Assembly (NCBI GenBank): GCA_963575745.1
Contig: CAUYUJ010016061.1
Location: 100,858 to 164,857 of the forward strand
Direction of reading: 5' to 3'
DNA: 64,000 bases
Source of the DNA: Prorocentrum cordatum
Lineage: Eukaryota > Sar > Dinophyceae > Prorocentrales > Prorocentraceae
The notes beneath the pieces were generated by a model. That model made no database searches. It saw nothing but the letters and a program-made list of their open reading frames with translations, and was not told the origin of the DNA. The position numbers were made by a program, and so were the translations under genes. Positions 8,901 through 63,037 of the stretch are shown here, in pieces (position 1 is the first letter of the stretch; each line of letters starts with the position of its first letter).

Positions 8901-9000
8901 NNNNNNNNNNNNNNNNNNNNNNNNNNNNNNNNNNNNNNNNNNNNNNNNNNNNNNNNNNNNNNNNNNNNNNNNNNNNNNNNNNNNNNNNNNNNNNNNNNNN
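8901..9000. other. assembly gap (100 N)
   Basis: Exactly 100 undetermined bases, the usual placeholder for a gap of unknown size. It abuts the GA microsatellite at the 3' end of retrotransposon copy 1, so further element copies or microsatellite may be missing. Confidence 0.97.
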
Positions 9001-9026
9001 GAGAGAGAGAGAGAGAGAGAGAGAGA
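9001..9026. repeat. (GA)13 microsatellite
   Basis: Pure GA repeat, truncated on the left by the gap. On the minus strand it is the (TC)n tail of retrotransposon copy 1. Confidence 0.95.
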
Positions 9027-9393
9027 TCGGACATGTAGGCGGACCAGGGTCCGTCCGCGAGGCGCACTGCGGTGCGACAACTCGCCAAACACTATTTGCG
9101 GCGGTGCAGCCTTAAGATACGAGGGCGGGCAACAAAACCCCCTCCCCCGGCGCAATGCGACAGACGCTACAGACGGCGGACAGACGGTGACGATCTCACG
9201 TGTCAGACCGCGTGAAGAAAGAGGCCCCAACAAGGAAGGCGACGTGCTGACACGTGGCTAGGCGGCTTGGCAGACCGCCAGTTGGGCGCTTGGCCGCAAA
9301 GCGGCGCGCAGGGACGGGGCACCCCCCGCCCCCACGCCCTGACACCGTGGACGCGGAGCCACGCGTACACACGGGCAGGCAGAAAGGAGGAAA
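9027..9393 (-). promoter_or_regulatory. 3' untranslated region of copy 1 with terminal hairpins
   Basis: It follows the ORF2 stop and ends at the microsatellite. Two hairpins lie beside the 3' terminus: CGGACCAGGGTCCG (9040-9053, 6-bp stem) and CGCACTGCGGTGCG (9063-9076, 5-bp stem). In LINEs whose RT recognises its own RNA, a 3' stem-loop next to a microsatellite tail is the usual recognition site; that role is inferred here. Confidence 0.6.
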
Positions 9394-12300
9394 TTAGCGC
9401 GGGGCACCAGGTGGAGCGCCGCGGAGCGATGACAGCATAGCTTGGATGGTGAGTGACGGCGCAGCACCATCGGGCGAGGGCATAAGCAGCTCGGCGAAGG
9501 CACGCCCGGCGCTGTGGAGGCGCTGGAGCAGAGGGCCTTGACGGGCTTGAGCAGCGGCGAGGTCCGCGGCGAGAGCAGCACACCTCTGCTGAAGAGCGGC
9601 CATAGCCTGGGTCAGCTCGGTTTCGCGGTCGGTGAGGGGCGGCTGCTCAGTGCCAGCGGCCGCGGGCCTCGTGGCAGGGACGAGGTCATCGGTGCGCCTG
9701 GCCAGGTGGTGGACTAGCGCAGTACGGCGCTCCGTGTGCTGACGGCCGTCACCCTTGGGAGGCGACTGGAGGGTACCACGCGGCCCCAGGGCTGGAGCCG
9801 CTAGGGCCACGCCCCGTGAGGTCGGAAGAGCCGCATCCTCGCGCCCAGCAACAGTGGAAGCGTGGACGGGGTGCGTCGGTCTGACTGGCTCGGTGCCCTG
9901 CGGGGGGGCTGGAGCCGCCCCCGCGGGCTGGCGCTGGTGGGGGGGCGGAGTGGGTGGCACGGTAGGACCAATCATGATGCCATGCGAGGGCTCGGAGGTC
10001 GGCCGCGTAGTCGGGTGGCGTCTCGATAGGGCGGCATCGTCGGTAGCGTGGGGTGTCGGCGGAGCGTCGTCTATGCTGCCACTCAGTCCGAGGGGGTCAA
10101 CCAGGTCATCGTCGGCGTCTTGACGGTGAGCGACATCATCATGTGGGTACGATGTCGCTCTCGGTGGCGGATTCGCGGTGGGCGTCGAGAGGTTGCCCGA
10201 CGGGGCAGGGTTTGCGCTGGCTGGGCCGTCGTCCAAGAAGTCCAATCCCCCGCCGAAGCCGAACGGGTCGTCCTCCTGTTCATCGAGCATCGCCCGCTGG
10301 GCCTCGGCCCAGAGCTCATCCGGGTCTTGCGGGATGAATGGTCCTGCCGCGGGTGGTGCCTGGTCCGACAGCAGGGGGGTTGGTTCCATTTTGCTGAGTT
10401 CCGCAGCTGTAAACCCAGCCCTGCGGTGTGGGAGCGGCAGAGTACGGTGTCTGCGCTCGTAGATAGCGACAGCGACCCCATGGAGCACGGTCGCTTGGCG
10501 ATGTCGTGTTTTGGCAGCTTCAACAATGTCGTCGGGAAGGTTGTGAGTGCGTGCCGCCGTTGTGGCAAGGGCGTCGGCCTGACGGTTGAACTCCTCCGCA
10601 ATGGGCCCGATGAGCCCAAGGTCGATGCCAGGTCTCCCAGGTGGCTGGCGATTTTTTCGACGCGAAACATGTTGGGCTTGGCCATAACACATCGGTGGAT
10701 CTTTTCCCAGAGCTCCGCGTGCGTGCCCTGCGGCGCTGGATGTCCGTCGATGATGCTTTGGAACCCATCGACCACCGCCTGGTTGTCCACGAAAAACGTG
10801 CACGGGCCGTTCGGCACATGCCTTAAGGTGGACAATGGCGAGGGTCTCCGCAACCTGGGCGTTCTGCGTTAGGCCGTGAACGCGTGCACTGTAGTTCATG
10901 CGGTGGTCGATGCCGTAGTAGTCGCCGTAGCCCGCTCGTGCTAGCAATGGGATGGCTTGGTTGGTGCATGCACCGTCCGTGGCAGCGTAGACCCATGTCC
11001 AACCAGTGTCATGGTCAAGGTAGGTGGTGTAGGTGTCCTGGGCTGAAGCCGCAGGATCTCCCTCAGGGGGGGGCCGCGGCATGGGCTGTGGCAACGAGTC
11101 CCTCGCGAGGTCGGCCTGCAGGTCGAGGAGGACTGGGTCTTCGTCGAAGAGCCCGCAGTGTCTTGTGTGCGGCGGAAGACGGGCCCACTGGTCGTCACTG
11201 ATGAGGGTGGTGAGAGGGAGTCTTTCTCGGGCCCAGCACTTGCAGTCGCGGACAGTGTGTTCCTGAGTTTCCTCTTCCTCGTCGCAGTAGCGGCAGATGG
11301 GGCTGGGGTCTGCCGACGTGTTTGATCGGGATCGTCGCTGTTGGGTGTGATCCCCGCCCGACAGGTAGTTCAGGAGGAGCGCCAGCTGCCAGGCAGTGCA
11401 TTTGGCTGCTCCTTTAGTTCTGGCGAGCCACGTGCTGGCGAAGAGGTCGAGGCCCTGTCTGACAGAGGCTAGGTAGCCAAGGTCGTGTCGCCGTGGCTTG
11501 ATCCTCCGCAGAAGCGCCCTGCGTTGTGAGGCCCGCAGCATGTGTAGGAAGGCGTTTTGGGGTAAATTCAGCCAGCTGATCTGGCAGCCCCAGTCGTCGT
11601 ACATGATGCCAAATGTGGGCCAGGTCCATCGGAGCTGCTGGAGCGACTGGACGAGTCGCCCGACGGGTCCTCCACCAAACAGGGTCTGGACGTGGTGTTG
11701 GAGGTCTCTGGCGAGCCCGCAGAGTGTAACGTCGCGGTTAAACTGTCGCCGCAGGCACAGGAATGCTTCACGCTGCGTGATGGCGTCGATCTCAAGGGCG
11801 TGTCCCGGCACGCACACGGCCATGAGAGTCCAGAACTCGACCCACTTGTTTCCCTTGGGGCGGATAGCCGCCTTGAGGGCGTGGTTGTAGGCAGTCTTGG
11901 CTGGGCCTGATGGTGCTTGGATGTCGGTGCCCGTGGTGCAGACGCTGGCGGCTAGGGATCGGGCGTGCCGCGCCTTGATAAGCATCGGCGACGGGAGCTT
12001 GCCAATGCGCGGCAGGCGAATAGTCGCCCTCCGTACACGGGCGTCTGCGGTGGCCGTGAGGTTAAGCGCGGCTGGAGCCGGCGCTGCCTCTGCGTTGATG
12101 TAACTCCCGACGAGCTTGAAGGAATCGACCACACGAAGGGGGCGCTCCGCCAGTGTGAGCTGGGTAACGGCGGCGTGAAGCTCGTCGGTGAGCGCCCACC
12201 CTGCCACTTTACCAGGGTGAATGCGTAGACCTGAGAATCGATCAAACTTGGCGGTTTCGTCAAGAGATTTCTGCAGCTCAGACGCGGTGTGGGTAGTGGA

Positions 12301-15300
12301 GTTGCTGTCGTCAACAAAGGTAGTGCTGAGTGATCGAGGAACGTACCGATGCTGCCTCTTTGTCCACACGCACGTGAGCAGCTTGATGTCGTCCAGGGAC
12401 CACGAGCTTCCCTGGAGGTGACCGTTAGTCCTGGCCAAGTCCTTAGAGTACGCTCCGTTCATGCGGATGTAGCGTTTGTGGTGTCTGTAGAAATTTCGGC
12501 GGACAGTAACGATGTCTTGAGGGCACCCCGCGTGCAGCGCAAGGTTAAGGCAGATGTCCGTGATGAGGTAGTCGAAACACTTCTGTCGGTCAAGGGCAGC
12601 TCCAGCTAAGGGGAGGAGTAAAGCCCTGGCGTGTTCGATGCGCAGGGCGAGAGAGGTGCTGACATCACCAATGGTGGCTTTGGGAACAGCGCCGAAGCTC
12701 GTGGCATGGGTCCATCCTTGCCGCCAGGTCGTGAGGCTACGGTAGGCTGGCGCTTCCCACGCGTACATCCAAACGGAAAGAACCGAGAGAAGTCGTTGGT
12801 CCGTCGGGAGTTCCCCTCGGCCTTTTCGGAGGCGCGGGTTTGGCACGTGTAGGAGGGGCTCGGGGATGGTGCCAGTGCGTTGCATAGCACGTAAGACGCT
12901 GGAGAAGAGGCGAAGGATGTCGTCGGGTAACTCCTTAGCCTCCTTAGTTGTCCAGCCGTCGAGTCCCCCCGCGCGGCGCGGTGAACGGGTGCGTATGAAG
13001 TGGATGAGTTGGTCGTCGGTGAGGTGGAAAGGGGCTGCTGGTGATGGCGTAGGCAGCTCTTGTCGGTACTCGTCGTAGAAGTCTGCCCACGTCGGCATAG
13101 CTTCGGCGCCATGACCTGCGCGAGCGCGATACCTGCCCAAGATGGGCTCCCAGGTGTCGACCATGAGCTTAAGCATGTCTTTGGTATTGGCAACAATGGC
13201 GTTGGCGGGGAGGGCGTCGGGAACCTGGGCAGGTGGTGGGTCACGAGTGTGGCCTTCGTCGTTGTCAGTGTCGAGCGAACTACCGTCGCTGGGGCTGAAG
13301 CCGCCAGCGTCGGTGTCGGCATCACTATCGTCCGTGCAAGCTTGGTCAGGGTTGAAGGCGGTGGTGTCGCAGTGGAGCTGTGCATCGTCAGGAGTGGTAG
13401 GCGTGCGGAGATACGCCGTGGGCGAGCAGTCGGCAGCCCGTGCGTATATGGCCGCTTTTCGCCCGCTTGGCTCGCGGACACCCTCCGCCCAAATCTTGAT
13501 GCGTTCCGCTTTGACTCGGTTTGCACGTCGCGCCAGCTCTGAGTCAAGGTGTTGGATCAGACGGTCCAGGTGCTCTCCGCGTGGTGCTGGCACGTCGGGG
13601 GCCCAGGCCTCGGGAAAGGCCAGGAGGGCCGTGGGGCGCAGCTTGTGGCAGAGAAGGCGGGCCGCGGTCCACGCGCAGTCGATGCGCTGCGCCAGGTACG
13701 GCGGGATAGCACGGCAGTCGATATGATGGTGCTGTCCGATGAAGCGAAGCTCGCAAAGTTGCCGATGGAGCTTGCGAAGGCGGTTCATGTGAATCGTGGA
13801 AGCTCCGTAGGTGGGAGAGGCGCGGGGGACGGCGGGTCGCTCCTCGAACGTGGGTGTAAGCCCGTGCATGGTAGGGGCCTTCTTTTTTGGGTGGTCTGGC
13901 GGTGGAGGTGGCAGGTCGCGCAGCCGGGTGAGATGGTACTCATGGCTGGCCTCGTTTGCCAGGGCGAACATGCGTTCCACATCGTCGCGTGTGTCAGCCT
14001 GCTCCATGCGGTCATGGTATCGCCCTGCGATGAGGGTCCCTAAAGCCTGGAGTTCGTGGTCCTCATGAGCTCCGTCGGTAGGAGGGTAAGGCGTGGGGGC
14101 AAGAAGGCGTGGGGCCGTATGGTCGAGGCGGCTAAGGTCGAGAGTGACCTGCAGGCCAACATGGGACTTCGCTGGCAAGTCACGCAGATAGCAGAAGTCG
14201 GTGACGAGGGATCGCGCCGCTTGGTTGGCGATGATATAATCGATGCGCGAAGTGCGGGGGCACTTGGTGACGCGGTCCCAGTCAGGGATGTTGCCATATG
14301 TGTGCATGGTGTGGTCCGGTGTGCCTTCAGCGACGTTAAACCATCCGTGCTGCATCATGTGCAGCAGGTGAGGATTGTCGTCGATGTTCGTGTTGGCGTC
14401 CATGCAAATGAAGTACGGGGCTGAGCCGACCCTCGCGGCGGCACAGTCAGCAGGCCGAAACAAATCGGTGCTGTCTCCTCCAGCGACCCCGTAGAGGCTC
14501 GCAATGTAGATCCCAGCGGGCCCGTGGTTGTTTCGTCGCCGCCTGCGGCGGTGCTGGGTGCAGAGCGGGAGGAAGGCCTCGTGCCATCGTTTCTTGGCCT
14601 TGAGGGTGGCGATACAGGACGCAGTGTCGTCGACGGTGGAGTCGACGATGGCGTCCTTAGAGAGGATGGCGACCCCTCCCGAGGCGCCAGTGTTGCCCTC
14701 GACCGTGTGGTCCGTGCCACCGTGAGCAGCTTTGCGCTGGGCTCGCGCCAGATCCAGGTCAGGTCCCAGACTGGCCTGGTATCCTCCGTGGTGTGGATTG
14801 GCGGCGTTGGTAGCGATGGCTTGCCTGGTAGGCTTGGCATGTCGGGTCTCCTGCAGTGCTATGACTGCGGCGTTGTGGTCGACACCTAGAGCGGTGATGG
14901 TTGGCCAGTTCGCTGGGAGACTCGTGATGTTGAGGCTGACGAGGTGGATGGAGCGACCTGGCCCGTCTCCGTCGGTGGAGCTGGGGTCGGCACGCCCCGC
15001 GCGGTGGAGGGCAGCCTGGCCCTCACCCAGGTAGAAGGCTTGGCCACAGTAGGAGCTCATGGCGTCCCTGCAGATTGGCTTGAACGGGGCTGAAGCCGCC
15101 GTCAGGCCAGAAGTATAGGCGAGGCATGGTCGACACTGCGCCAGGGGGGGTTCATAAACATCGGCAAAACTGCCTCGAAAAATCCTCCTCACTCCTGTAC
15201 CGTGGGGGACGGGGGGAGGAGAGGTGAGACGGCAGCAGAGGGAGAGGGAGGCGACTCCTCGATCCGTCCTGCCGAAAACAAGAACAAAAGCAAACCAGCG

Positions 15301-15468
15301 GCGGCGGTTCGGCGCGGCAGCGGCGCAACGCGCGCGCATATACTGCGCACGCGACACCGCTGGTCCGTCCTGCGGCGGCGCGCCCGCCCCGTCAGTACCG
15401 TGATGAGCAGCATCGGGTGGAACAGCTCGAGCGGCGCGGTCGGTGGCCTGGCGCTGAGCCTCATCCAT
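9394..15468 (-). CDS. ORF2 C-terminal part, copy 1: EEP endonuclease, RT, RNase H (broken)
   Basis: The enzyme half of the LINE polyprotein, which would nick target DNA and prime cDNA synthesis on it. The EEP domain (about 14950-14135) shows SLNITSL, ALQETR, DANTNID and SRIDYII; the usual SDH near its end reads SHV. The RT (about 13080-12170) has motif A LDRQKCFD, motif B GHLQGSSWSLDD and motif C FVDD (12307-12318). A C2HC finger CRYC-x8-H-x4-C lies at 11242-11295. RNase H begins at TDGACT (about 10990). An extra A in the run at 10792-10796 and a lost base near 10630 put about 55 codons out of frame, removing the VDNQAVVDGF catalytic Asp. The tail ends in a coiled coil. 15468 is only the first start after the upstream frame break; the ancestral frame begins at 22116. 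Confidence 0.9.
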   Translation of the reverse strand: MDEAQRQATDRAARAVPPDAAHHGTDGAGAPPQDGPAVSRAQYMRARCAAAAPNRRRWFAFVLVFGRTDRGVASLSLCCRLTSPPPVPHGTGVRRIFRGSFADVYEPPLAQCRPCLAYTSGLTAASAPFKPICRDAMSSYCGQAFYLGEGQAALHRAGRADPSSTDGDGPGRSIHLVSLNITSLPANWPTITALGVDHNAAVIALQETRHAKPTRQAIATNAANPHHGGYQASLGPDLDLARAQRKAAHGGTDHTVEGNTGASGGVAILSKDAIVDSTVDDTASCIATLKAKKRWHEAFLPLCTQHRRRRRRNNHGPAGIYIASLYGVAGGDSTDLFRPADCAAARVGSAPYFICMDANTNIDDNPHLLHMMQHGWFNVAEGTPDHTMHTYGNIPDWDRVTKCPRTSRIDYIIANQAARSLVTDFCYLRDLPAKSHVGLQVTLDLSRLDHTAPRLLAPTPYPPTDGAHEDHELQALGTLIAGRYHDRMEQADTRDDVERMFALANEASHEYHLTRLRDLPPPPPDHPKKKAPTMHGLTPTFEERPAVPRASPTYGASTIHMNRLRKLHRQLCELRFIGQHHHIDCRAIPPYLAQRIDCAWTAARLLCHKLRPTALLAFPEAWAPDVPAPRGEHLDRLIQHLDSELARRANRVKAERIKIWAEGVREPSGRKAAIYARAADCSPTAYLRTPTTPDDAQLHCDTTAFNPDQACTDDSDADTDAGGFSPSDGSSLDTDNDEGHTRDPPPAQVPDALPANAIVANTKDMLKLMVDTWEPILGRYRARAGHGAEAMPTWADFYDEYRQELPTPSPAAPFHLTDDQLIHFIRTRSPRRAGGLDGWTTKEAKELPDDILRLFSSVLRAMQRTGTIPEPLLHVPNPRLRKGRGELPTDQRLLSVLSVWMYAWEAPAYRSLTTWRQGWTHATSFGAVPKATIGDVSTSLALRIEHARALLLPLAGAALDRQKCFDYLITDICLNLALHAGCPQDIVTVRRNFYRHHKRYIRMNGAYSKDLARTNGHLQGSSWSLDDIKLLTCVWTKRQHRYVPRSLSTTFVDDSNSTTHTASELQKSLDETAKFDRFSGLRIHPGKVAGWALTDELHAAVTQLTLAERPLRVVDSFKLVGSYINAEAAPAPAALNLTATADARVRRATIRLPRIGKLPSPMLIKARHARSLAASVCTTGTDIQAPSGPAKTAYNHALKAAIRPKGNKWVEFWTLMAVCVPGHALEIDAITQREAFLCLRRQFNRDVTLCGLARDLQHHVQTLFGGGPVGRLVQSLQQLRWTWPTFGIMYDDWGCQISWLNLPQNAFLHMLRASQRRALLRRIKPRRHDLGYLASVRQGLDLFASTWLARTKGAAKCTAWQLALLLNYLSGGDHTQQRRSRSNTSADPSPICRYCDEEEETQEHTVRDCKCWARERLPLTTLISDDQWARLPPHTRHCGLFDEDPVLLDLQADLARDSLPQPMPRPPPEGDPAASAQDTYTTYLDHDTGWTWVYAATDGACTNQAIPLLARAGYGDYYGIDHRMNYSARVHGLTQNAQVAETLAIVHLKACAERPVHVFRGQPGGGRWVPKHHRRTSSAAGHARGALGKDPPMCYGQAQHVSRRKNRQPPGRPGIDLGLIGPIAEEFNRQADALATTAARTHNLPDDIVEAAKTRHRQATVLHGVAVAIYERRHRTLPLPHRRAGFTAAELSKMEPTPLLSDQAPPAAGPFIPQDPDELWAEAQRAMLDEQEDDPFGFGGGLDFLDDGPASANPAPSGNLSTPTANPPPRATSYPHDDVAHRQDADDDLVDPLGLSGSIDDAPPTPHATDDAALSRRHPTTRPTSEPSHGIMIGPTVPPTPPPHQRQPAGAAPAPPQGTEPVRPTHPVHASTVAGREDAALPTSRGVALAAPALGPRGTLQSPPKGDGRQHTERRTALVHHLARRTDDLVPATRPAAAGTEQPPLTDRETELTQAMAALQQRCAALAADLAAAQARQGPLLQRLHSAGRAFAELLMPSPDGAAPSLTIQAMLSSLRGAPPGAPR

Positions 15469-15508
15469 GCCCGCTGCCGTGAGGCACGCGTTGCGGACAG
15501 GGCTGACT

Positions 15509-16078
15509 CACGCGGGGCCGCCGCTGCCGCGGCAGCGGCTGAGGTGGCGGGGGCGCCGCCATGGCTCTGAGGAGAAAGCGGTGAGCCGCCGCCGAAGCCC
15601 GCCGCGAGGTCCTTGACGCGGTACTTGTTCTTGAAGGGGTCGAAGGTCGGCGCCTCGTCGATGGGAACGACAACGCGGGTGGGCGGTGGCAACTCCTGGT
15701 CCGTGGACGGCGTCGGCTCGAGGTCGACCTGGCCAGGTTCGATGACGCTGGCACCGAAACGTGGCACCACCTCGGGGGCTTGGCCATCAGCCTGAGTCTC
15801 GCGGGGCGGCGAGCTCGTGGAGCTCCCAGGGGCCTTGCGCGAGCTGTGGCGGCTGCAGGACCGGCTGCGCGGGACGCGCCCGCCCGTGTGGCGGTCACGT
15901 GGCGAGGTCGCCTGGGCGTTAGCGCGCGCAGAGTCCGCCCTGCTCGGGGAGCGGATCGGCGCTGCGCAGGGTGTTGGGCTGGGCTGGCGGGAGCCGCCTG
16001 TGCCGCCCGCCGCCGAGGCTGTAGCCTGGTCAGGGTCGACGGCGTCAGGGCGGGGGCTGACGTGGTGGGCACTACCCA
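15509..16078 (-). pseudogene. frame-shifted bridge inside copy 1 ORF2
   Basis: Relative to copy 2, copy 1 has an extra A at 16078 and lacks a C at about 15509. The roughly 190 codons between, beginning SAHHVSPRPDAV, are therefore read in another frame, and the main frame meets TAG at 16072-16074. In copy 2 the same residues are continuous with both sides. The segment is Pro-, Ser- and Arg-rich with no recognised domain. Confidence 0.8.
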
Positions 16079-19000
16079 TCGCTGTGCCGCGGGGAGGCGC
16101 TGTGGTGCGCCTGGGTGTACGTGAGGACGAGCGGGACGAGCGGCTGCCGCTCGCGCTCAGGGGGGCCAGGTTTTGCCTGGGCAGGGCGCAGCGCTGCGGC
16201 CACGTTTGGCGGGGGCGTGTGTTGGCGCGGTTGCCAGGCACGCACGTTCGCCTCGCGCCATCCTTCAGGGCGCCCTGTCCTGCCTCGGCTGGGTGCAGCC
16301 CCCTGGGCTGAAGCCGCAGGGGTTACCACTGCGGGCTGGTAGCTGGCGGTGCTGTCATGGCGGCCTGGGTAATTTCCCCAGGCACGCGTGGACCCTGGCA
16401 CGGGCGAGGTGGCCCGTGGGGGAGCCTGCACGCGTGCGCGCGGGTAGCCGATGACCGCTGGGTGCACCCTGGCGTGGGGGGCGTGGCCATAGCTGGAGGC
16501 GGCTGCCCCTGCCGCCGCGGGCCTGGCGCCAATGGGACCACGGTGGTGGGTGGCTCCCCCGCCGTACACCGCGTTGTCGCCTGTCGGGACGCGCGCGGGA
16601 GAGCGGTTGCGTGGCGTGCTCGGCTGACCTGCGTCGCGTTGGTCGCGCTGCTGGGTGCGCTGCTGGTGCTGTTGGTAGCGCTGCTGGTCGGCTCTCGAGA
16701 GCGGACGGGTGTCGGGGAGGATGGTGGGCACGTCGGGCCGCCGCCAGCCCTGATAGACGTGCTCGAAGGCGCGGTCTGGGTAGGTCTCCCCGACGGGTGA
16801 GTAGCGCCGCACACGCTCCACGTAGTCAATGTTCTGCGGCTCGGGGAGCACCGTGATGTTCACAGCTCGCTGGTGCGCTGGTCCATAGAGACAGAAGCTA
16901 CCACGGTTGCTGCGGTCGTGGTTCAGCTCGGCTTCGGTCGTGGCACGGCTCACCATGGCGTCGCAGAGGCGCATGTCGTAGTCGAGGGCTTGAGGCCCAG
17001 GGCCGCCCTCGGCATCCCAGTACAGTACCACGTCTCGCCAGCGGGTGCGGGTAGTGTGGATGCGCTCGGCGATAGACTCGCAGACGGTCCTGACTGTGAC
17101 ACGATCCCTATGCATGTTGGTGATGGCTAGGGAGTAAGGTCGGCGGACCGTTTTGTTGAAGATGAAGTCCTCCTTGAGGGCCTGGTGGGGGCCGAAGAGC
17201 ACGTAGCCTTCCCTCCACAGGGGTTGATCGGGAGACGGGTCTTCAGGCATCCCCGTTCCTGTGAACCCAGGTGGCCGCCTCGTGCCGTCGGGCAATCCCT
17301 GCTTGAGGACGCGACGCGGCCTCGGTGGTAGATACCATTGACCCTGGTAACCTGCTTGGCCTGGTTGTGGAGGCTCCCCCCCGGGGCCTGAAGGCGCTCG
17401 GGGGGGGTCCTTGAGGTCGTGCTGGGCTGGCGCGTTGCCGTATTGGCGGGCAAGGATGTGCGGAGGCATCCCTGTGGCACGGACGTCGAACAGGCTGTGC
17501 GGACTAGGCGGATGGGGGCACCTGCTGGAGAGGCAGCATGTGTCGGAGTCCCTGTTGTCGGTGCTGTACGCACACGTCCAGCTGTTGCAAGAGTAGTCCG
17601 TGGACCAGTCCATAAGTGCACGTAGTCCGCTGAGGGAGCAGTCTGGGCACGCTGGTTGGCCGGAGGTGCCGAGCTGCGTGTTGCGGCGGGCCGCACAGTA
17701 CTGACAGCATTGGAATCGGCACTGTAGGCATGTCCAGCGTCCTGGTAGGGGCGGGAGCGCTTGCTCGTTGGTGCCTGCGTCGTCTGGGTGGGGTCGGGGT
17801 CGATCCCACAAGGGCCAGACGTCGGCGAACCAGGACTGGCCTGTAGTGCGGACCACCTCAGCGGGGAGGCGAGCGTCGTCAGCATGGCGCTCGATCCACT
17901 GGGGCCCCAGGCCCGCTGGGATCATGACCGTGCGCCAAGTGTCGTCCGCCTTGACGTGGACTTGGGTCGGTGCCCAGAGCCTGGTAGTGGTATCGCCATG
18001 GTCGTGGTGGAGGATGACCCAGCCGTCGCGACCCGCAACCGCAGGGTCGATAACGCGGTGGCCCACGACGGTCGTCCCCCACGGTAAGTAGGCGCCGTCG
18101 TGGTGCTCGCCCGGGTCAAGCCAGACCTCGATGCCAGGGGCATTGACACGGGCCCGCACATCGCGGACGTGGAAGGCGAGGACGTGGTAGGCGGTCGGCT
18201 CCTCTTCCGTCTCGATGTGCTCCCACGTCTCGATGTCGCTGTTGTCCGAGGTGGAGTTTCCGCCGCTCTGCCGTGACGAACGCGAGGCGGATCGCCGTGG
18301 GCGGGCATGGCCTCGGGCGAGGGCGGCGGCCGCGCTGATGAGGGACGGCGTACGGCGGTCGTCGGCTCCCGATGTCGTCGATGAGCGGTCTGGACTGTGT
18401 CCCAGGGCGGCACCTGACTGGTAGGTGCGCGGTGGGCCAGACGCGGCCCCAGGGCTGGAGCCGCTGGGGCGCGGCTCTCGTGCGTCGGACTGCCCCCGCA
18501 CGGGGGCGGCTTGCAAGCCAGTGTACACCAGGTCGATCAGTGGCTGCGGGTCCAGCTGGAGCTTGCGAAGCGAGACGCGTGGACGGGGCTGGTTGGGGTC
18601 GGCCCTGGTGGCGGCTTCGGTGTCGTAGTGCTGTTTAGCCCATGCTCGCGCTGCCTCTGGTGAGTATAGTGCCTGCGGTGGTGGCCACGCTGCCGCGATG
18701 TCCAGCCTGCGCCAGGTGTTAGCTTCCTGGTCGCGGGCTTCAGCCGCCTCGCGGAGGTCTGGGTGATCGTAGCCGGCGATGTGGAGGGCGTGCGCACAGT
18801 CGCCCATGCCATAGGCCTGTGGTAGGGCACGGCACCTGGAGGCAGCTTCCGTGGGGGCACACCAGTCCATGCGGATGAGGAGGCCCAGGACCCGAGGGTA
18901 GATGAGGCGTGCTCCGTGGGCCTCCCCTTTCACGAAGTTGTGCCAGTTTTCACCGCTCGGCGGTTGGGTAGCCTCGCACATCCAGAGCGCGATGGGTCCC

Positions 19001-22116: not shown

Positions 22117-22287
22117 TGCTACAATCACGCCCCCTGCAAGACTACGGGTGTCCCTACACCAGATAGCTTGCGCGTGCTGCTGCCAAAACAGACATGAGGT
22201 GACAAGAAAGAGATACGACGCGAAGAGGGGAGAGATGCCTCTGAAGGCGCTTCCTCGGAGGGCTGAGGCGGGCTCTCTGAGGCACCT

Positions 22288-24867: not shown

Positions 24868-25018
24868 TGCTGCGGGCGCTCTGGTGGGAGAGGTGACGCG
24901 AATCAGTAGGGTCCTGCTGGGGCCCCTCCGGTCTCGCGAGGCCTGGGAGTCTGACTCCGAGGCGGGGCGCTTCGCGTCGCGGCTGCGGTCTGAGTGCTGG
25001 GCACTCTCGAGCCGAGAC

Positions 25019-25020
<2 letters not shown>
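24868..25020 (-). promoter_or_regulatory. 5' leader of copy 1
   Basis: 153 bases between the GA microsatellite and the ORF1 ATG. Two perfect hairpins are present: GAGTGCTGGGCACTC (24992-25006) and GGAGTCTGACTCC (24946-24958). Both are identical in copy 2. LINE leaders often hold an internal promoter or a 5' ribozyme; I could not assign either. Confidence 0.55.

Positions 25021-25058
<38 letters not shown>
25021..25058. repeat. (GA)19 microsatellite joining the two copies
   Basis: Pure GA repeat and the only sequence between the 5' end of copy 1 (25020) and the 3' end of copy 2 (25059). Confidence 0.97.
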
Positions 25059-25060
<2 letters not shown>

Positions 25061-25425
25061 GGACAAGTAGGCGGACCAGGGTCCGTCCGCGAGGCGCACT
25101 GCGGTGCGACAACTCGCCAAACACTATTTGCGGCGGTGCAGCCTTAAGATACGAGGGCGGGCAACAAAACCCCCTCCCCCGGCGCAATGCGACAGACGCT
25201 ACAGACGGCGGACAGACGGTGAAGATCTCACGTGTCAGACCGCGTGAAGAAAGAGGCCCCAACAAGGAAGGCGACGTGCTGACACGTGGCTAGGCGGCTT
25301 GGCAGACCGCCAGTTGGGCGCTTGGCCGCAAAGCGGCGCGCAGGGACGGGGCACCCCCCGCCCCCACGCCCTGACACCGTGGACGCGGAGCCACGCGTAC
25401 ACACGGGCAGGCAGAAAGGAGGAAA
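25059..25425 (-). promoter_or_regulatory. 3' untranslated region of copy 2 with terminal hairpins
   Basis: Same length as in copy 1, with only scattered substitutions. Both hairpins are conserved (25072-25085 and 25095-25108), directly beside the (GA)19 tract. Confidence 0.6.
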
Positions 25426-29121: not shown

Positions 29122-29139
29122 GTCGGCATAGCTTCGGCG

Positions 29140-34152: not shown

Positions 34153-37100
34153 TCAGACCTCGATGCCAGGGGCATTGACACGGGCCCGCACATCGCGGAC
34201 GTGGAAGGCGAGAACGTGGTAGGCGGTCGGCTCCTCCTCCGTCTCGATGTGGTCCCACGTCTCAATGTCGCTGTTGTCCGAGGTGGAGTTTCCGCCGCTC
34301 TGCCGTGACGAACGCGAGGCAGATCGCCGTGGGCGAGCATGGCCTCGGGCGAGGGCGGCGGCCGCGCTGATGAGGGACGGCGCACGGCGGTCGTCGGCTC
34401 CCGATGTCGTCGATGAGCGGTCTGGACTGTGTCCCAGGGCGGCACCTGACTGGTAGGTGCGCGGTGGGCCAGACGCGGCCCCAGGGCTGGAGCCGCTGGG
34501 GCGCGGCTCTCGTGCGTCGGACTGCCCCCGCACGGGGACGGCTTGCAAGCCAGTGTACACCAGGTCGATCAGTGGCTGCGGGTCCAGCTGGAGCTTGCGC
34601 AGCGAGACGCGTGGACGGGGCTGGTTGGGGTCGGCCCTGGTGGCGGCTTCGGTGTCGTAGTGCTGTTTAGCCCATGCTCGCGCTGCCTCTGGCGAGTATA
34701 GTGCCTGTGGCGGTGGCCACGCTGCCGCGATGTCCAGCCTGCGCCAGGTGTTAGCTTCCTGGTCGCGGGCTTCAGCCGCCTCGCGGAGGTCTGGGTGATC
34801 GTAGCCGGCGATGTGGAGGGCGTGCGCACAGTCGCCCATGCCATAGGCTTGTGGTAGGGCACGGCACCTGGAGGCAGCTTCCGTGGGGGCACACCAGTCC
34901 ATGCGGATGAGGAGGCCCAGGACCCGAGGGTAGATGAGGCGCGCTCCGTGGGCCTCCCCTTTCACGAAGTTGTGCCAGTTCTCACCGCGCGGCGGTTGGG
35001 TAGCCTCGCACATCCAGAGCGCGATGGGTCCCCACGCGAGGGTGTCGTCCTCGAGGCTGTAGGGCGGGTGAGGCGGCACTGCGCACCACGCGGCCAGCGA
35101 CGGGTGCACGCTCACGTACGTGCGGCCAACATCTGTGGCGGTTCGACCCTTCGCTTCACGGCGGGGGCCTGGCAGGAGGTGACCTCCGTTGAAAGCGAGA
35201 CGAGCCGCAAGGTCGCCGCGGGTCCCGTGCCAGAAGACCGTGGGCGTGTCAGTGGTGGGTTGACGGAGGTCCCACGTGAGGTAGGGGAAGATCGTCTCGC
35301 CTGAGTTCCCGCCCGAGTCTTCCAGCACCCAAGTAAGTCGGTCCGGGGGCCTCTGCATGATGTCAGTCCACGGTGCCAACGCTTGGAGCGTTGGATCATG
35401 GGTGAATCGAGGATGGTCGTGGAGCCGCAGGGCGTCTTTGATGTCCTCTGTAGTTACGCCACTGTTACCAAGCGCAAAGCCGTTTTGGTACAGGGCGGTG
35501 AGGATGCTCGTCGGCGGCACGGGGACCGCTGGGTCGCGCTGGATGGTGTTGCGTAAGTTGCGCGTCGGTGGCCTGAGGGCTGGGTGGGGCGTACCAGGGC
35601 CTGGAGGCGCCTGGGGCCTGGCGGGTGATGCATAGCGTGCTCGCCGTCGTGGTGGTTGGGTGTCCATGTCGGAAGAGGAACCACGAGCATCTGCATGTCG
35701 GAAGATGGACCACGGGCTGTCGAGGGTGCGCTCACGTGTTTCCCTTGCCTCGGCGTCGCTGGCATGGGCTGTGGCGTCTTCGTGAGTCGGTGGGTTGCCA
35801 TAAGCCGCACCACTTATGGGGCCGTCTCGCGGGGACGGGCTGGTCGATCGTGGTGTGACAGACGAGGCTCGCGATACCGCGGCAGTGACTTCGACAATGG
35901 CGGCGGTGGTGGCGGTGGTAACGTCGGCGACCGCGGCGGCAACTGCAGCAGCATAGTGTTCCTGTAGCAGCGGGTGTCGAAGTGAGTGCACGTGCTGGCT
36001 CTCGGGTTCGTCGGGATGCGTGCGCGGCATTGTGTATGTGGCCTCGTCACGCGGCCTCCTGCTCGGTTGGCAACAGCGGAGGCACCACTGGGCCGTGGAT
36101 GAGTCCAGGGCGCGCGCACAGATGCGGGCTCCTACGTGTCCGACGGCTCCTTGAGCGAGAAGTTTGGCGCCGACCAGAAGAAGACCGCACACCACTCCGC
36201 CAGTGGCAATAGCTCCGAGTTTGCCACTGGCCCATTTCAGGACACCCCCGAGGCCAGACCCGACTGCGCTGGCTCCGCCCGAGACGATATCTCTGAGTTT
36301 GGCGCTGGTCCACTTGAGAATACCCCACAGGGCGGGCGTGACGTTGTATGCCGTTGTGCGTCGGGGCGTAGTGGACACAGATGTGCCTGGTGCCGCCGCT
36401 TCACGTCGTCGTCGCTGCCGGTAGCTGGGGTCTCGGCTCGGTGTCGGCAAGTACCCGTCGATCTGGTCCTTGTACGGCATGGCTACCACGATGGCATACG
36501 TGGCCACGAAGAGACAAATGAGACAGCCGCAGCGTCGGGAGGCCGCTGCGCTGTGCGGGGCCTCGTAGGAGCCGCTGGCGTCAGGGCTCGCGTCGTCGAT
36601 GGGGTCGTTGTCGATGCCAGCCTGCCAGTGGTCAACGGCGCTGGAATTGGAGTCAGTCGCGTTAGCACGGCAGACAAGGGTGCGGGGCGTGGTTCTGCCC
36701 CCTGGGGTCTGAAGCCGTCCAGATCCAGCTAATGCTGCAGCGGGGCTGAAGCCGCCACTGCGCGAGCTGGTTAGAGCTGGCGATGCAGTGGGCTGGCTTG
36801 TCTCGTCGGCGGCAGTGGCGCCTTCAGCGTCATTGAGCTGTGCGCTGGGGTCGGCCTGGGCCGAGTTGTTGGGCGGACTGCTGTGCGACAGGGGGCGCCC
36901 TATGTAGGGTTCGCTGTCACGGTCACGCTGGGCTGTGTCACCTGGCGGTGCCGTGCCGTCGCGATCCTGGGTTTCCATGTCGTCCTGGCTATCGTCCGAC
37001 GCGTGAAAAGAGTCTAGGGATATGTTGCTGATATCGCTGGCCGCGATGTGCTGGAGCAGAAGCGGTTCGGCGTCAGCCGCGGGCTGGTCACTCGTGGCGT

Positions 37101-38310
37101 GCTGGGCGAGGGGGCCAGCTGGCGGTGGTAGGTTTAGCGGTTCCATCGGTGCCGCGGCGAGCTCCGCCTCGACAAGCGGCTGCATGTCTGGCGGGTGGTG
37201 CAGGATCGCATCCGCGAGGTACGCCAGGGCGTCTTGGTCGGGTGGAGGGAGGCCTCTTGGCAGCAAGGCGTGGGCCCGTGAGAGGTATGGCGGCAATGGT
37301 GCCGCGCAAGCCTCAGGGCCGACGAGCTGGGCACGAGCGCCCTGGTATTCCAGAAGGAGGCCAAAGTAGCGGGTGGGGTACTCGCGGCTGCCCTGGATAC
37401 GAGTGAGGTTGCGGTTGGTGCGCTGTCTGTCGGGGCCCGCTCTGTGCCAGATGTCCTCGCACATGTCGAACGCGGTGCGCTGGCGCAGGGCGTCGTTTTT
37501 CTCCTCGGAATCCTCCTGGAAAAAGTGGTCGTACTGTGGCAGATGGAGCGTCGCCAGGATGTACGGGACGCAGTCCTCGAGCCATGCCCAGAACACGTCC
37601 TGGTGGTCCTCACCTGGTGCCCACGCCGCGGCACACGGTATGAGCCGTGCTCGGATCATCATCAGGTGCCAGAAAGCGGGGTCCTCCTCGGGTTCGCCCC
37701 TGGCGCACAGAGGGGTAGTGAGACCCGTGGGGCTAAAGCGGGGCACGACAGCGGGGCTGAAGCCGCCACTGCGTGCCTGGGCCTTGTCAGCGGCCCCGTC
37801 GAGGATGTGTCGCACGACGGTCGAGGACAAGCTGAGGACGGACTGCGATGCATGTGTCGTAGTTGACGAGGACGTGCTCGTAGGAGACATGCTGGTACTC
37901 GCCGTAGCCGTCGTAGTAGTCGTCGGAGTCCCAGGGGGGCACCGCGTGGGGCAGGGCCCCTGGTGCTGCTCAAGCCAGGCACTCGCGATGGCGCCCAGCG
38001 GCCCATTGCCGCGCGGACCCGCGGCGGCGGTGCTGTTCACGATCGGGTCCAACATGGCGCAGTGATCGTATTTGTAGATGCTGTCATCGTAAAGGTAGAA
38101 GAGCGTCCCACGTTCAGCGTGTCGCAGGAAAACCTCTCCTCCATGCTGGGGCGCACCGCCTGAAGACGGGTGTGCTCCAGCTAGCGAGGGGAGGGCCAGG
38201 CTGCAGGCAAGGCGCCACATGATGGCGAGGCCTGGCGGGCGGCGCGAGCGATGAGCCGAAAGCTGCATGTCAGCACACGTCCTCAAATACCCCTGAATGC
38301 TCATGTACAT
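34153..38310 (-). CDS. ORF2 N-terminal part, copy 2 (ends at nonsense codon)
   Basis: About 1,385 codons from ATG 38310. It contains the hydrophobic segments (near 36477-36535 and 36110-36335) and the ADP-ribosyltransferase-like stretch (HGTR at about 35218-35232). Here the motif reads SLAAWCAVPP, with Cys for the Tyr of copy 1. It retains the 54-codon segment (after MEP, beginning LNLPPPAG and ending SQDDME) absent from copy 1. TGA at 34153-34155 replaces the TGG Trp codon of copy 1 by one G-to-A change, and the same frame continues beyond it. Confidence 0.85.
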   Translation of the reverse strand: MYMSIQGYLRTCADMQLSAHRSRRPPGLAIMWRLACSLALPSLAGAHPSSGGAPQHGGEVFLRHAERGTLFYLYDDSIYKYDHCAMLDPIVNSTAAAGPRGNGPLGAIASAWLEQHQGPCPTRCPPGTPTTTTTATASTSMSPTSTSSSTTTHASQSVLSLSSTVVRHILDGAADKAQARSGGFSPAVVPRFSPTGLTTPLCARGEPEEDPAFWHLMMIRARLIPCAAAWAPGEDHQDVFWAWLEDCVPYILATLHLPQYDHFFQEDSEEKNDALRQRTAFDMCEDIWHRAGPDRQRTNRNLTRIQGSREYPTRYFGLLLEYQGARAQLVGPEACAAPLPPYLSRAHALLPRGLPPPDQDALAYLADAILHHPPDMQPLVEAELAAAPMEPLNLPPPAGPLAQHATSDQPAADAEPLLLQHIAASDISNISLDSFHASDDSQDDMETQDRDGTAPPGDTAQRDRDSEPYIGRPLSHSSPPNNSAQADPSAQLNDAEGATAADETSQPTASPALTSSRSGGFSPAAALAGSGRLQTPGGRTTPRTLVCRANATDSNSSAVDHWQAGIDNDPIDDASPDASGSYEAPHSAAASRRCGCLICLFVATYAIVVAMPYKDQIDGYLPTPSRDPSYRQRRRREAAAPGTSVSTTPRRTTAYNVTPALWGILKWTSAKLRDIVSGGASAVGSGLGGVLKWASGKLGAIATGGVVCGLLLVGAKLLAQGAVGHVGARICARALDSSTAQWCLRCCQPSRRPRDEATYTMPRTHPDEPESQHVHSLRHPLLQEHYAAAVAAAVADVTTATTAAIVEVTAAVSRASSVTPRSTSPSPRDGPISGAAYGNPPTHEDATAHASDAEARETRERTLDSPWSIFRHADARGSSSDMDTQPPRRRARYASPARPQAPPGPGTPHPALRPPTRNLRNTIQRDPAVPVPPTSILTALYQNGFALGNSGVTTEDIKDALRLHDHPRFTHDPTLQALAPWTDIMQRPPDRLTWVLEDSGGNSGETIFPYLTWDLRQPTTDTPTVFWHGTRGDLAARLAFNGGHLLPGPRREAKGRTATDVGRTYVSVHPSLAAWCAVPPHPPYSLEDDTLAWGPIALWMCEATQPPRGENWHNFVKGEAHGARLIYPRVLGLLIRMDWCAPTEAASRCRALPQAYGMGDCAHALHIAGYDHPDLREAAEARDQEANTWRRLDIAAAWPPPQALYSPEAARAWAKQHYDTEAATRADPNQPRPRVSLRKLQLDPQPLIDLVYTGLQAVPVRGQSDAREPRPSGSSPGAASGPPRTYQSGAALGHSPDRSSTTSGADDRRAPSLISAAAALARGHARPRRSASRSSRQSGGNSTSDNSDIETWDHIETEEEPTAYHVLAFHVRDVRARVNAPGIEV

Positions 38311-38481
38311 TGCTACAATCACGCCCCCTGCAAGACTACGGGTGTCCCTACACCAGGTAGCTTGCGCGTGCTGCTGCCAAAACAGACATGAGGTGACAAG
38401 AAAGAGATACGACGCGAAGAGGGGAGAGATGCCTCTGAAGGCGCTTCCTCGGAGGGCTGAGGCGGGCTCTCTGAGGCACCT

Positions 38482-41061
38482 TCAATAGGGTTCCTGGGTG
38501 GCCCGACCCTTGTCCTTGCCTTTGTCGGCCCCTGGGGGCCCCGTCCCTGGGGTGACCTGGCCTGGCTGGTCGATCCAACCGCAGGCAGCCACGGGTTCGG
38601 CGGCCGCTGCAGCTTCCTCCTTCTTAGTTTCCAGAGTGGCCACTTGTGGCAGGTGGATGGTGCCTCCCGTGAGGTGCCCGAGGAGGGTCTGGATGTCGCC
38701 GCGCAGTGCAGCGGCGTCGGCGGTTGCCGTCTGTTGCTGGGTGACGACGGTGGCAAGCCCCCGTTCCAGCCCTGAAACGTGCTCCGTGAGTGTGGCCTGG
38801 GAGGAGAGAACGCCCGCAAGCTGCACCTGCATGTTATCCACCGTGTTGGCTAGCAGCTCGTGCTGCTGTTCCATGTGCTGGATGCGGGTCGTGGCAGCAT
38901 CTGGCGGTTTAGAGGCCGATGCGAAGCGCTCGCCGAAGGTGTTGAGTTCGTGGGAGGCCACGCTGTATTCATCACCTGATGAGAGGATCTCGACGTCGTC
39001 GACGTCGCCTGGTACTTCGGCGGCTGTGGCAGCGTCGCCTTCGGTGTGGCCCCCACCTTCTGCCGCCGCCGTGCCAAGCCAGGAGTCATGGCCACCTGAT
39101 CCTGGGGCGGCCATCGGTTCAGCGGCTCTGTCCGTGCCGTGCGGGGGTGCAGAGGAGCTGCGGCCTGGGGCGCAGGGTGGCCTTGCGTGCGGCGTGGCGT
39201 CACGTTTCCCGCTGGAGGAGCGGTGGCGCTTGGCTGAAGGCTCCTCCTTGGGGATCAGGAGCGGTGCGACGCCCTTGCCTTTGGGCGTGGCAGTCATGAG
39301 GTCGTGGAGGTAGGGGCTCTGGGCCGCTTTGGTGAGGAGTGTGCCGGCGGCGGGGCTAAAGCCGCCACCACGGGCTGGCGGCGTCCCAGGCTCTGTGATG
39401 ATGGTAGGCGTGACGATGGTAACGTTGTCCCGCTTCGGCACCACCTCAGCCAGCGGGGCCTCGGTGATGCTCCACGGGATAGGGCACCCCGCGACCTGTA
39501 CCGCATAGGTGAGTGGGGGCCGATGGGCGCGCACTAAGGCAAACTGGGCCGCAGTGGCTGGGCCCCAGGCGGTGTGGTAGACCTCACAGTCCCATTTAAC
39601 GGACGGGCCCGTGAGAGTCTTGGCGAGCTGGGTCAGCGTGGCGTGGCGTGCCGCAATGCCAGTGATGCGGTAACGCGTCTTGGCGAGGGTAGCCTCGCAG
39701 CCACGGGTGCTGACAGCAGCAGCCTCGGCGGCGTCGGACCCCCGTGGAACACGGATCCCCAGTAGGCCAGACTTGCCGTGCCTGACGACTCCCAGGGCCT
39801 TGAACTCCACCGACTTCTGGAACGCGTCTGCCATCGTGATGGGCTGGTCCTCAGGGAACCACACGGTCTGATACTTGTCGGCGGTGGGCTCGTCTGCACC
39901 TACGTTGCTGAGGTCGTAGGTGGCACCGAGTTGCCCTGATCCCGCCAGGACCTTGTCGACCGCTTGAAGACTGACACCGAAGGTGGCTGCCAGGGACCTC
40001 TTTCCGACGCCCGATCCAAACCTGCCTAGGCTTTTGCAGGGTTCAAGGATGGTGACGGCTTTAAAGTTGCCGTGGAAGAGGGCCTTGAAGGTATCCTGAA
40101 GCTGACTATCGAGCTCCTGGCGGCGAGCGTCTTTCTTGGACTCCCTGTGCTTTTGGTTTTGGCGCGCCTTGTCCTGTGGGGCGGAGTCCCCTCGAAAAGG
40201 GCCCTTGGCGCGTGGACCACCGTTCACGGGGGCACCTCCCGAGAACTGGTCCTCGAAGGCCTGGTGCATGGAGGGGACTGCGGCAATGGCCTCGGTCTCG
40301 TGTATGGTCGCCCGAATCCAGCAGACGTGGTCGGCAGGGTCGATGGTGGCGACGGCTACTTTTTCCGTGCAGGCGACCTCCTTGGTGCCCAGCTGGTACA
40401 CGGTCACGGGGACGTGCGTGTGGACCACTTTGGGCGCCTTGGGGTGACGCTTCAGGACGGGGACGGCGAGCTCGGCACCGACGTAGTTGTCGTTTTTTGG
40501 GCCCATGACAGCAATCGCGAGCTGACCCGTGGCTCGCTTGCCCTGCTCGAGGTGGTGTTGCAGCAGCCGTTCACCGCTCTCGTAGTCGTGGAGGCTGATG
40601 CTGGGCTTGTACGTCTTGCCGTCGTCAGGTGATGTGGGTTCGGCGAGGACAGGGACCTTCCAAAAGGCCGGGTCCAAGGCGATGAATTGGGTGTCCGCAG
40701 CCTGAAGACGTGCGGAACCCGCTGGTGGGTGTGATGTGTCACCGCCAGTGCGCTTAGGCTTGCTGCGCTGGTGATGATCAAGCGTGTAGCTGATCTGGTT
40801 GGCGGCGCACATGCGGATCAGGGCGCTGCCAAGCTTCTTCGTGTTGGACTTGTGCATGTCGTACGTTGCCTGGAGCTCGTCCGCGTTCAGTTCGGCAAGC
40901 CCGTTGTATGCGGCCGTGGGGCGGTCAGACCCCGCTTGCTTGAACGCTGCGATGCAGTCCTGCTTGCGTTGAAGAAGAGACCCTTCAGCAGCAGGGCGCG
41001 TGGGGCGAGTGCTCGGAGGCTGCTTAGAAGAGCGACGGCGCTCCGGCTTCTTGGGGGCCAT
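38482..41061 (-). CDS. ORF1 protein, copy 2 (859 aa)
   Basis: Intact, same length as the copy 1 ORF1, with only a few amino-acid substitutions, for example KRTGGDTSH for KRIGGDASH. Basic N-terminus, acidic linker with VEILSSGDE and C-terminal coiled coil are all conserved. That both copies keep ORF1 open while ORF2 is broken differently suggests recent insertion. Start at ATG 41061, stop TGA at 38482. Confidence 0.88.
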   Translation of the reverse strand: MAPKKPERRRSSKQPPSTRPTRPAAEGSLLQRKQDCIAAFKQAGSDRPTAAYNGLAELNADELQATYDMHKSNTKKLGSALIRMCAANQISYTLDHHQRSKPKRTGGDTSHPPAGSARLQAADTQFIALDPAFWKVPVLAEPTSPDDGKTYKPSISLHDYESGERLLQHHLEQGKRATGQLAIAVMGPKNDNYVGAELAVPVLKRHPKAPKVVHTHVPVTVYQLGTKEVACTEKVAVATIDPADHVCWIRATIHETEAIAAVPSMHQAFEDQFSGGAPVNGGPRAKGPFRGDSAPQDKARQNQKHRESKKDARRQELDSQLQDTFKALFHGNFKAVTILEPCKSLGRFGSGVGKRSLAATFGVSLQAVDKVLAGSGQLGATYDLSNVGADEPTADKYQTVWFPEDQPITMADAFQKSVEFKALGVVRHGKSGLLGIRVPRGSDAAEAAAVSTRGCEATLAKTRYRITGIAARHATLTQLAKTLTGPSVKWDCEVYHTAWGPATAAQFALVRAHRPPLTYAVQVAGCPIPWSITEAPLAEVVPKRDNVTIVTPTIITEPGTPPARGGGFSPAAGTLLTKAAQSPYLHDLMTATPKGKGVAPLLIPKEEPSAKRHRSSSGKRDATPHARPPCAPGRSSSAPPHGTDRAAEPMAAPGSGGHDSWLGTAAAEGGGHTEGDAATAAEVPGDVDDVEILSSGDEYSVASHELNTFGERFASASKPPDAATTRIQHMEQQHELLANTVDNMQVQLAGVLSSQATLTEHVSGLERGLATVVTQQQTATADAAALRGDIQTLLGHLTGGTIHLPQVATLETKKEEAAAAAEPVAACGWIDQPGQVTPGTGPPGADKGKDKGRATQEPY

Positions 41062-41213
41062 TGCTGCGGGCGCTCTGGTGGGGAGAGGTGACGCGAATCA
41101 GTAGGGCCCTGCTGGGGCCCCTCCGGTCTCGCGAGGCCTGGGAGTCTGACTCCGAGGCGGGGCGCTTCGCGTCGCGGCTGCGGTCTGAGTGCTGGGCACT
41201 CTCGAGCCGAGAC

Positions 41214-41215
<2 letters not shown>
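41062..41215 (-). promoter_or_regulatory. 5' leader of copy 2
   Basis: 154 bases, one G longer than in copy 1. The two hairpins are at 41187-41201 and 41141-41153, unchanged. Confidence 0.55.

Positions 41216-41270
<55 letters not shown>
41216..41270. repeat. (GA)27 microsatellite at the 5' boundary of copy 2
   Basis: Pure GA, about 55 bases, followed by unrelated sequence starting GGAAAAAAATGG. It is the outer boundary of the retrotransposon pair. Confidence 0.96.
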
Positions 41271-54330: not shown

Positions 54331-54394
54331 TTGCTTCACACCCCTTGCTGCTACGCGCTGCAAGCACCGTGCCACCTGCCTGAAATGCTCAGGT

Positions 54395-54785: not shown

Positions 54786-54789
54786 CGCG

Positions 54790-62835: not shown

Positions 62836-62837
62836 GG

Positions 62838-62998: not shown

Positions 62999-63015
62999 GA
63001 TGTTCTGGGAAAAGT

Positions 63016-63037
63016 ATGCTAACGGAGTTCCCCACAT
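63016..63037. repeat. array header, copy 2
   Basis: Identical to 60194-60215; precedes array B by about 40 bases. Confidence 0.85.

Follow-up and report, generated by a model that had tools for sequence, protein, structure and literature searches.

What kind of element carries an open reading frame (ORF) of about 4,250 codons, and how might an RNA of its length be assembled? The question is raised by a locus of the dinoflagellate Prorocentrum cordatum (assembly GCA_963575745.1, contig CAUYUJ010016061.1, positions 100,858 to 164,857), a stretch of 64,000 nucleotides, hereafter the window, in which two copies of a sequence of about 16 kb lie head to tail. Judged by its architecture, this sequence would be a long interspersed nuclear element (LINE), differing from known LINEs in its size and in an operator-like array of hairpins. 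The reading toward which we lean is that both copies are broken versions of a LINE-like element of about 16 kb, that its ORF2 is a single frame, and that the 13 to 15 hairpins of each copy are bound by a protein of the element, which would thereby assemble its RNA.

Two copies and the giant ORF2

Self-comparison of the window showed that copy 1 and copy 2 represent a single sequence, lying on the minus strand (the strand of all element features given below), and are 98.3% identical overall and mismatched at 274 of 16,055 aligned bases. Copy 2 (25059..41214, 16.2 kb) lies between CT repeats, and copy 1 (9027..25019, 16.0 kb) is without 162 bases that are present in copy 2. This deletion separates the two blocks of the comparison, in which 9001-20942 matches 25033-36974 at 98.0% identity and 20938-25058 matches 37131-41253 at 99.0%. 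On the coding strand, a CT repeat stands directly before and at the end of each copy (28, 19.5 and 13 units): (AG)28 at 41215..41270, that is (CT)28 on the coding strand, precedes copy 2; (AG)19.5 at 25020..25058 separates copy 2 from copy 1; and (GA)13 at 9001..9026 follows copy 1 and adjoins a gap of N at 8901-9000. Both copies are full length, and all readable borders fall in CT repeats, the far side of copy 1 being the assembly gap.

In copy 2, ORF1 (38482..41061, 859 codons) runs from ATG 41061 to TGA 38484. ORF2 starts in the phase of ORF1, from which a single shared TGA parts it, and covers 25426..38310 in copy 2 (4,294 codons from the first ATG, in one phase) and 9394..22116 in copy 1 (4,240 codons from the first ATG, in one net phase). 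In-phase stops are TGA 38484, TGA 34155, TGA 29142 and TAA 25428 in copy 2, and TGA 22290, seven stops within 16074-15510 and TAA 9396 in copy 1. The TGA that ends ORF1 (38484 / 22290) and the final TAA are the stops common to both copies; each ORF2 is broken at different places, and both internal TGA codons of copy 2 align with TGG in copy 1. An earlier note, made from the sequence alone, had placed 38310, 34152, 29121 and the stop at 25426 of copy 2 in one phase, and likewise 22116, 15468 and 9394 of copy 1, and the map of in-phase stops bears this out. The same note had named stops conserved between the N-terminal part of ORF2 and its enzymes, an EEP endonuclease and a reverse transcriptase (RT), as evidence that would speak against a single frame; between the two copies, no stop inside ORF2 is common to both.

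Stop counts tell the same story. Of the 4,351 codons of copy 2 in the ORF2 phase, 2 are stops, where the remaining sense frames have 51 and 106; for copy 1 the figure is 7 of 4,297, with 49 and 99 in the remaining frames. In a control of 200 Markov sequences, the mean was 81.8 stops and the minimum 58. Changes between the copies fall at codon positions 1, 2 and 3 as 53/52/165 over ORF1 and ORF2. The proportions are 19/22/79 in 38481-31090, the part without known domains (p = 3.7e-13), and 15/14/60 from EEP to RNase H (p = 5.4e-11), and the ratio of nonsynonymous to synonymous divergence (Ka/Ks) is 0.20 for the ORF2 N-terminal region 38310-32112 and 0.16 from EEP to RNase H. The N-terminal part has evolved under purifying selection just as the enzymes have. 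That some 2,400 residues precede the enzymes, as had been claimed, is upheld by the shared phase, by this Ka/Ks and by 1 stop in 2,464 codons (30 and 51 in the other frames) for the N-terminal part (31093..38310), which carries two hydrophobic segments (36531, 36213) and two Cys clusters (33762, 33681). The giant single-frame ORF2, of about 4,250 codons, is confirmed for both copies, and phase, stop counts, third-position bias and Ka/Ks together support the proposed single ancestral frame of about 4,240-4,295 codons.

The enzymes themselves were scored against Pfam as single domains cut out of ORF2 (cut-offs of 24.5 bits for EEP, 25.8 for RNase H and 29.6 for RVT_1); whole ORF pieces gave no significant domain match. 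The claim that ORF2 encodes EEP, RT, a zinc finger and RNase H held fully for two of these. The EEP endonuclease (30247..30915; PF03372 / Exo_endo_phos, 28.0 bits) and RNase H (26626..27015; PF00075, 27.8 bits) lie above the cut-offs, while the RT (28228..28674; RVT_1, 16.0 bits) and a zf-RVT-like Cys/His cluster (27268..27372) are sub-threshold. The RT does possess the motifs LDRQKCFDYL, GHLQGS and FVDD, which are conserved (as LDRQKCFDYL, GHLQGS and F[VI]DD) in those relatives that cover them. Structure prediction of the RT was unusable (predicted local distance difference test score, pLDDT, 37.7).

Two such relatives, both covering the enzyme part only, were found among 7,993 scored candidates when 29139-25429 was searched against 5.8 billion proteins. 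P0001 (1,328 aa, 46% identity) runs in a single frame from the end of EEP through the RT and the zinc-finger region into RNase H, of which it has a part, although its predicted start lies inside EEP, and it keeps RT motifs A, B and C. P0002 (739 aa, 44% identity) keeps motif C and has an RNase H above the cut-off (30.8 bits). EEP lies upstream of RT in the same net phase in both copies, as it does in P0001. ORF1 and the N-terminal part of ORF2 had no convincing match in Pfam, NCBIfam, PHROGs or PDB sequences. The region near 35240-34850 has a putative ADP-ribosyltransferase-like motif; its structure prediction was unusable (pLDDT 37.2). Viral contigs, prokaryote genome contigs and phages yielded no confirmed relative, ORF1 and 38481-34156 being covered in viral contigs only.

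The relatives also help in reading the damage. The difference in ORF2 length had been equated exactly with the 162-base deletion, and this is right as a net value; three +1/-1 indel pairs inside ORF2 (copy-1 coordinates 16078/15510, 13117/13084 and 10796/10630) are present as well and cancel. Six single-base indels that form three frame-restoring pairs are unexpected with both copies dead. In the zone 16078-15510, copy 2 is open and copy 1 is closed by stops. In 13117-13084, copy 1 reads PTWADFYDEY, resembling PTWQRFRDEY of P0001, while copy 2 is shifted and runs into TGA 29142; because the relatives show that copy 1 kept the frame there, this TGA sits in a frameshifted stretch. In the zone of 10796-10630 it is the RNase H of copy 2 that reads like P0002, copy 1 being shifted. 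The copies also differ in a graded way: synonymous divergence (Ks) is 0.017 and 0.022 in the 5′ third (41061-36001) and 0.04-0.06 in 36000-25429, and because it is so much lower in the 5′ third, gene conversion or a recombinant history is hinted at.

A covarying hairpin family on the sense strand

The second distinguishing feature came to light through a peptide. Copy 2 has GGFSP in frame at four places (expected 0.003), and a role as a cleavage or docking motif was considered and dropped: its DNA, GGCGGCTTYAGCCCC, is also found out of frame (31118-31132), and its flanks pair together, so that the peptide is better taken as a by-product of an RNA hairpin. The design comprises a variable outer stem of 5-12 bp, a bulged C, a 3-bp upper stem and a UYYA loop. 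Each copy possesses 13 such hairpins by a strict definition and 15 with a covariance model built from the strict sites, all on the sense strand of the element and in every codon phase (bulged C at codon positions 1, 2 and 3 at 1, 7 and 5 sites).

From the 5′ end of copy 2, the strict hairpins with the loop UUCA are hairpin 1 (40694..40716, with outer stem, bulged C and 3 bp), hairpin 3 (37748..37772), hairpin 4 (36737..36761), hairpin 7 (32332..32354), hairpin 8 (31115..31135), hairpin 9 (29319..29341) and hairpin 11 (27068..27088). Those with UCCA are hairpin 5 (35594..35614, with the middle pair of the upper stem flipped, GCC/GGC), hairpin 6 (34478..34502), hairpin 10 (28097..28117), hairpin 12 (25932..25956) and hairpin 13 (25810..25844, with a 12-bp outer stem), and hairpin 2 (39347..39371) has UUUA. 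The covariance model adds 38153..38173 (E 0.031) and 33413..33433 (E 7.3e-4), the latter dividing a gap of 2,148 bases into 1,069 and 1,079. The hairpins of copy 1 (9778..24522) lie, in the same order, at 24522-24500, 23181-23149, 21979-21959 (model only), 21578-21554, 20729-20705, 19582-19562, 18470-18446, 17401-17381 (model only), 16322-16300, 15103-15083, 13309-13287, 12085-12065, 11056-11036, 9924-9900 and 9812-9778. One more model match, confined to copy 2, reaches E 0.47; outside the element, no match is better than E 1.2.

Several tests separate this family from chance. In the whole window, the 11-base core CGGCTYYAGCC is found 22 times, always on the element sense strand and 11 times in each copy, and an outer stem of at least 5 bp flanks 22 of 22 cores, against 0.745% of random element positions. 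Shuffling synonymous codons 300 times, with the protein kept, gave a mean of 0.10 strict hairpins and a maximum of 2, where each copy has 13. Strict UYYA hairpins were absent from the antisense strand and from 31.7 kb of flanks, and a control with the UYYA loop and another bulged base found none. The minimum-energy fold includes the hairpin at 13 of 13 sites, with shuffle z-scores of -2.1 to -5.1. Once trimmed, the 13 sequences include 12 distinct ones, in which all 96 pair cells are paired and 6 of the 8 pairs vary on both sides; their covariation score of 0.816 compares with 0.157 when shuffled. Since pairing was part of the hairpin definition, the count of 22 of 22 cores is a fairer test than covariation. 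Between the copies, 2 substitutions fall in 313 hairpin bases (5.3 expected), and both keep pairing (U-G/U-A and G-C/G-U), which fits a hairpin that acts as sense-strand RNA. Together, these tests show a family of hairpins on the RNA-sense strand that pair, covary and occur in every codon phase. Rfam had nothing at its cut-offs; four sub-threshold matches in copy 2, all on the opposite strand, were taken as chance.

The spacing is also distinctive. Distances between the 13 strict sites range from 1,011 to 2,148 bases, mostly 1.0-1.8 kb, with the last pair only 112 apart, and their coefficient of variation (CV) of 0.38 is more even than uniform placement (P = 0.00065). With 14 sites the CV is 0.324, and 0.187 when the last is dropped, 0 of 20,000 draws being as even in either case; with 15 sites it is 0.360 (P = 0.0002). 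A strict period of 1,058 bases is weakly supported (P = 0.014).

Proposed RNA assembly and its rivals

LINE RNAs are usually selected in cis by their own proteins, with little sequence specificity. In the element proposed here, a protein of its own, for which the ORF1 protein would be the first choice and the N-terminal part of ORF2 the second, would bind the predicted hairpins and condense the 16-kb RNA, packing it into a particle. The EEP endonuclease would then nick a (GA/CT)n microsatellite, and the RT would copy the element RNA at the nicked repeat by target-primed reverse transcription. Such targeting, together with target-primed reverse transcription, would explain why tandem copies are split by CT repeats and why a poly-A tail is missing. 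A bolder version, which we hold only tentatively, is that of a LINE with a virus-like packaging code: an RNA of about 16 kb with an operator-type hairpin about every 1.1 kb, in every codon phase, and a protein of the element that reads it and condenses that RNA into a defined particle; its ORF2 would also exceed that of any LINE seen to date. If an evenly spaced, repeated binding site were true of a LINE, sequence-specific packaging would enter the retrotransposons, in a form comparable with the packaging signals of RNA viruses. The giant ORF2 raises the question of what role 2,400 extra residues under purifying selection have in a retrotransposon, and the tandem copies that of how a 16-kb RNA gets copied end to end twice at one site.

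A number of points weigh against these proposals. Neither copy is intact, and among 1,559 scored candidates there was no full-length protein relative or independent uninterrupted copy; the piece 34152-30163, spanning the end of the N-terminal part and EEP, had no relative among 7,978. The RT falls below its Pfam cut-off (16.0 against 29.6 bits), and no Pfam match at all was obtained for the corresponding piece of P0001. Selection is not significant for ORF1 (9/6/11, p = 0.22; Ka/Ks 0.47) or the C-terminal tail (11/10/15, p = 0.19; Ka/Ks 0.50), and coding evidence is thin at 31539-31090, with nine substitutions. As for the hairpins, their definition was set only after the sequence had been inspected, and when any loop was allowed, 17 were found on the sense strand of copy 2, where shuffles averaged 2.0 and never exceeded 9; the antisense strand had 5 and the flanks 18. 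Peptides of the hairpin cores are absent from P0001, with one loose match in P0002, and hairpin conservation was assessed on these two copies only, the relatives being known as protein. Finally, neither ORF1 nor the N-terminal part of ORF2 showed a recognisable RNA-binding domain.

This last point lends itself to the alternative that survives best, although we consider it unlikely: the hairpins could be read by a host factor, or could serve RNA processing, silencing or translation, rather than assembly by a protein of the element. Their even spacing would suit such roles too. The absence of UYYA-definition hairpins from the 31.7 kb of flanking sequence speaks against it, these being genomic flanks and not host transcripts.

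Another alternative, somewhat more doubtful, divides ORF2 into two proteins: the N-terminal part would be one, and the other, with EEP, RT and RNase H, would span about 1,890 codons from ATG 31092 and be translated from an mRNA made by splicing or trans-splicing. The phase that they share would then be chance or a relic. The weakest link of the single-frame case is indeed the stretch at about 31500-31000 that joins the N-terminal part to EEP. Substitutions there are few and the codon score is low, a splice-acceptor-like pyrimidine tract ending in ACAG lies at 31283-31227 (minus strand), upstream of that ATG, and the P0001 prediction begins only inside EEP; a separate spliced frame is kept as a rival because of this thin coding evidence and the acceptor-like tract. 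The phase across 31500-31000 is nevertheless identical in both copies, and 31500-30990 contains no in-phase stop (Markov probability 0.0275), with a codon score that, low as it is, still favours the ORF2 phase.

It is also conceivable, but rather improbable, that the hairpins arose as small palindromic insertions, spreading within the element or the host genome, tolerated in linkers and without function for the RNA. Hairpins 9-11 do lie in segments longer than those of the relatives (106 residues against 38; 19 against 13 and 13; 27 against 23 and 23), which fits signals placed in tolerant linkers and equally fits small insertions. An origin by insertion is harder to square with outer stems that vary from site to site while pairing is kept, with flanks free of UYYA-definition hairpins, with spacing more even than uniform, and with two between-copy substitutions that both preserve pairing.

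More improbable again is that ORF1 and ORF2 form one polyprotein of about 5,200 codons, TGA 38484 being read through or a shared mutation. The two ORFs do share a phase with no other stop between them, and the alternative frames contain 5 and 4 stops in 38397-38098; yet the TGA is present in both copies, the codon score is near zero in 38397-38098, and the 57 codons before ATG 38310 carry one substitution, too few to test. That one copy was duplicated by the assembler can be set aside as scarcely credible in spite of the gap at 8901-9000, the copies differing at 274 of 16,055 bases, by the 162-base deletion and by single-base indels, with changes mostly at third positions.

Surroundings and comparison with known systems

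Neither copy has a poly-A tail at its ends, and there are no long terminal repeats within a copy's ends, self-comparison (hits of more than 100 bases) showing the copies only. The sequence contains no match to the dinoflagellate spliced leader with up to 3 mismatches, and the fold of the 3′ untranslated region is unremarkable (z -1.25). CpG depletion is absent, with values of 0.95 and 0.96 in the element and 0.92 and 0.93 in the flanks, where tblastn of four ORF pieces found no relics of the element. The flanks do contain an open frame on the minus strand (53308-55269) that matches a PIF1-like helicase (E 2.5e-7) and could be either a host gene or what remains of a Helitron. They also hold a large array of a 77-base minisatellite (60253-63998), with others at 48881-50386 (units of 100 bases) and at 59002-60189 (about 134/394 bases).

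Among the published elements compared, the closest by architecture are the LINEs of Symbiodinium, including SymbioLINE-Dnmt. These have ORF1 and an ORF2 that encodes RT, domains that include Exo_endo_phos, RVT_1 and RNase_H, and no poly-A tail (PMC5890265), all of which the present element shares, its RVT_1 match being sub-threshold. Unlike SymbioLINE-Dnmt as described there, it bears hairpins, is bordered by CT repeats and has an ORF2 with about 2,400 additional N-terminal residues; no DNA methyltransferase (DNA_methylase) domain was matched in ORF1 or the N-terminal pieces, and CpG is not depleted. Neither a LINE of comparable size nor a hairpin array in a LINE turned up in the literature searched, from which subscription papers are largely absent.

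LINE ORF2 proteins usually measure 1,000-1,400 residues, and an EEP endonuclease occurs in the I group and in L1. The ORF2 described here is about three times longer than those of the LINEs that bear RNase H. The latter include the I group, plant L1, Proto1 and Dualen/RandI (PMC4640811), with which the element shares a putative RT plus an RNase H domain.

Position within a simple repeat likewise has precedents. The target of Kibi is a microsatellite. Here the repeat is CT, at all readable borders, a trait that would be shared with Kibi and Togen. Kibi is named in PMC6515669, and Togen is a (TG)n-specific LINE near NeSL, whose clade carries another type of endonuclease (PMC4640811). The present element has an EEP endonuclease and is seen as two adjacent copies, perhaps from one event.

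For the hairpins, the likeness is to be sought outside the retrotransposons. The upper stem of the MS2 hairpin has 2 bp, where the hairpins of the element have 3 bp. An operator-like system would combine many hairpins with a conserved loop and bulge and a variable stem, and this is what was found, with 13 strict hairpins or 15 by model in each copy and covariation between stem positions. The packaging signals of MS2 are many dispersed hairpins with a bulged base on the 5′ side, an apical loop ending in YA and variable stems (PMC6281560), and each of these traits recurs here. The element differs in that the bulged base is C (A in MS2), that the hairpins lie in a retrotransposon and are more evenly spaced, and that the binding protein is putative. 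The resemblance to MS2 is a likeness of design, not kinship.

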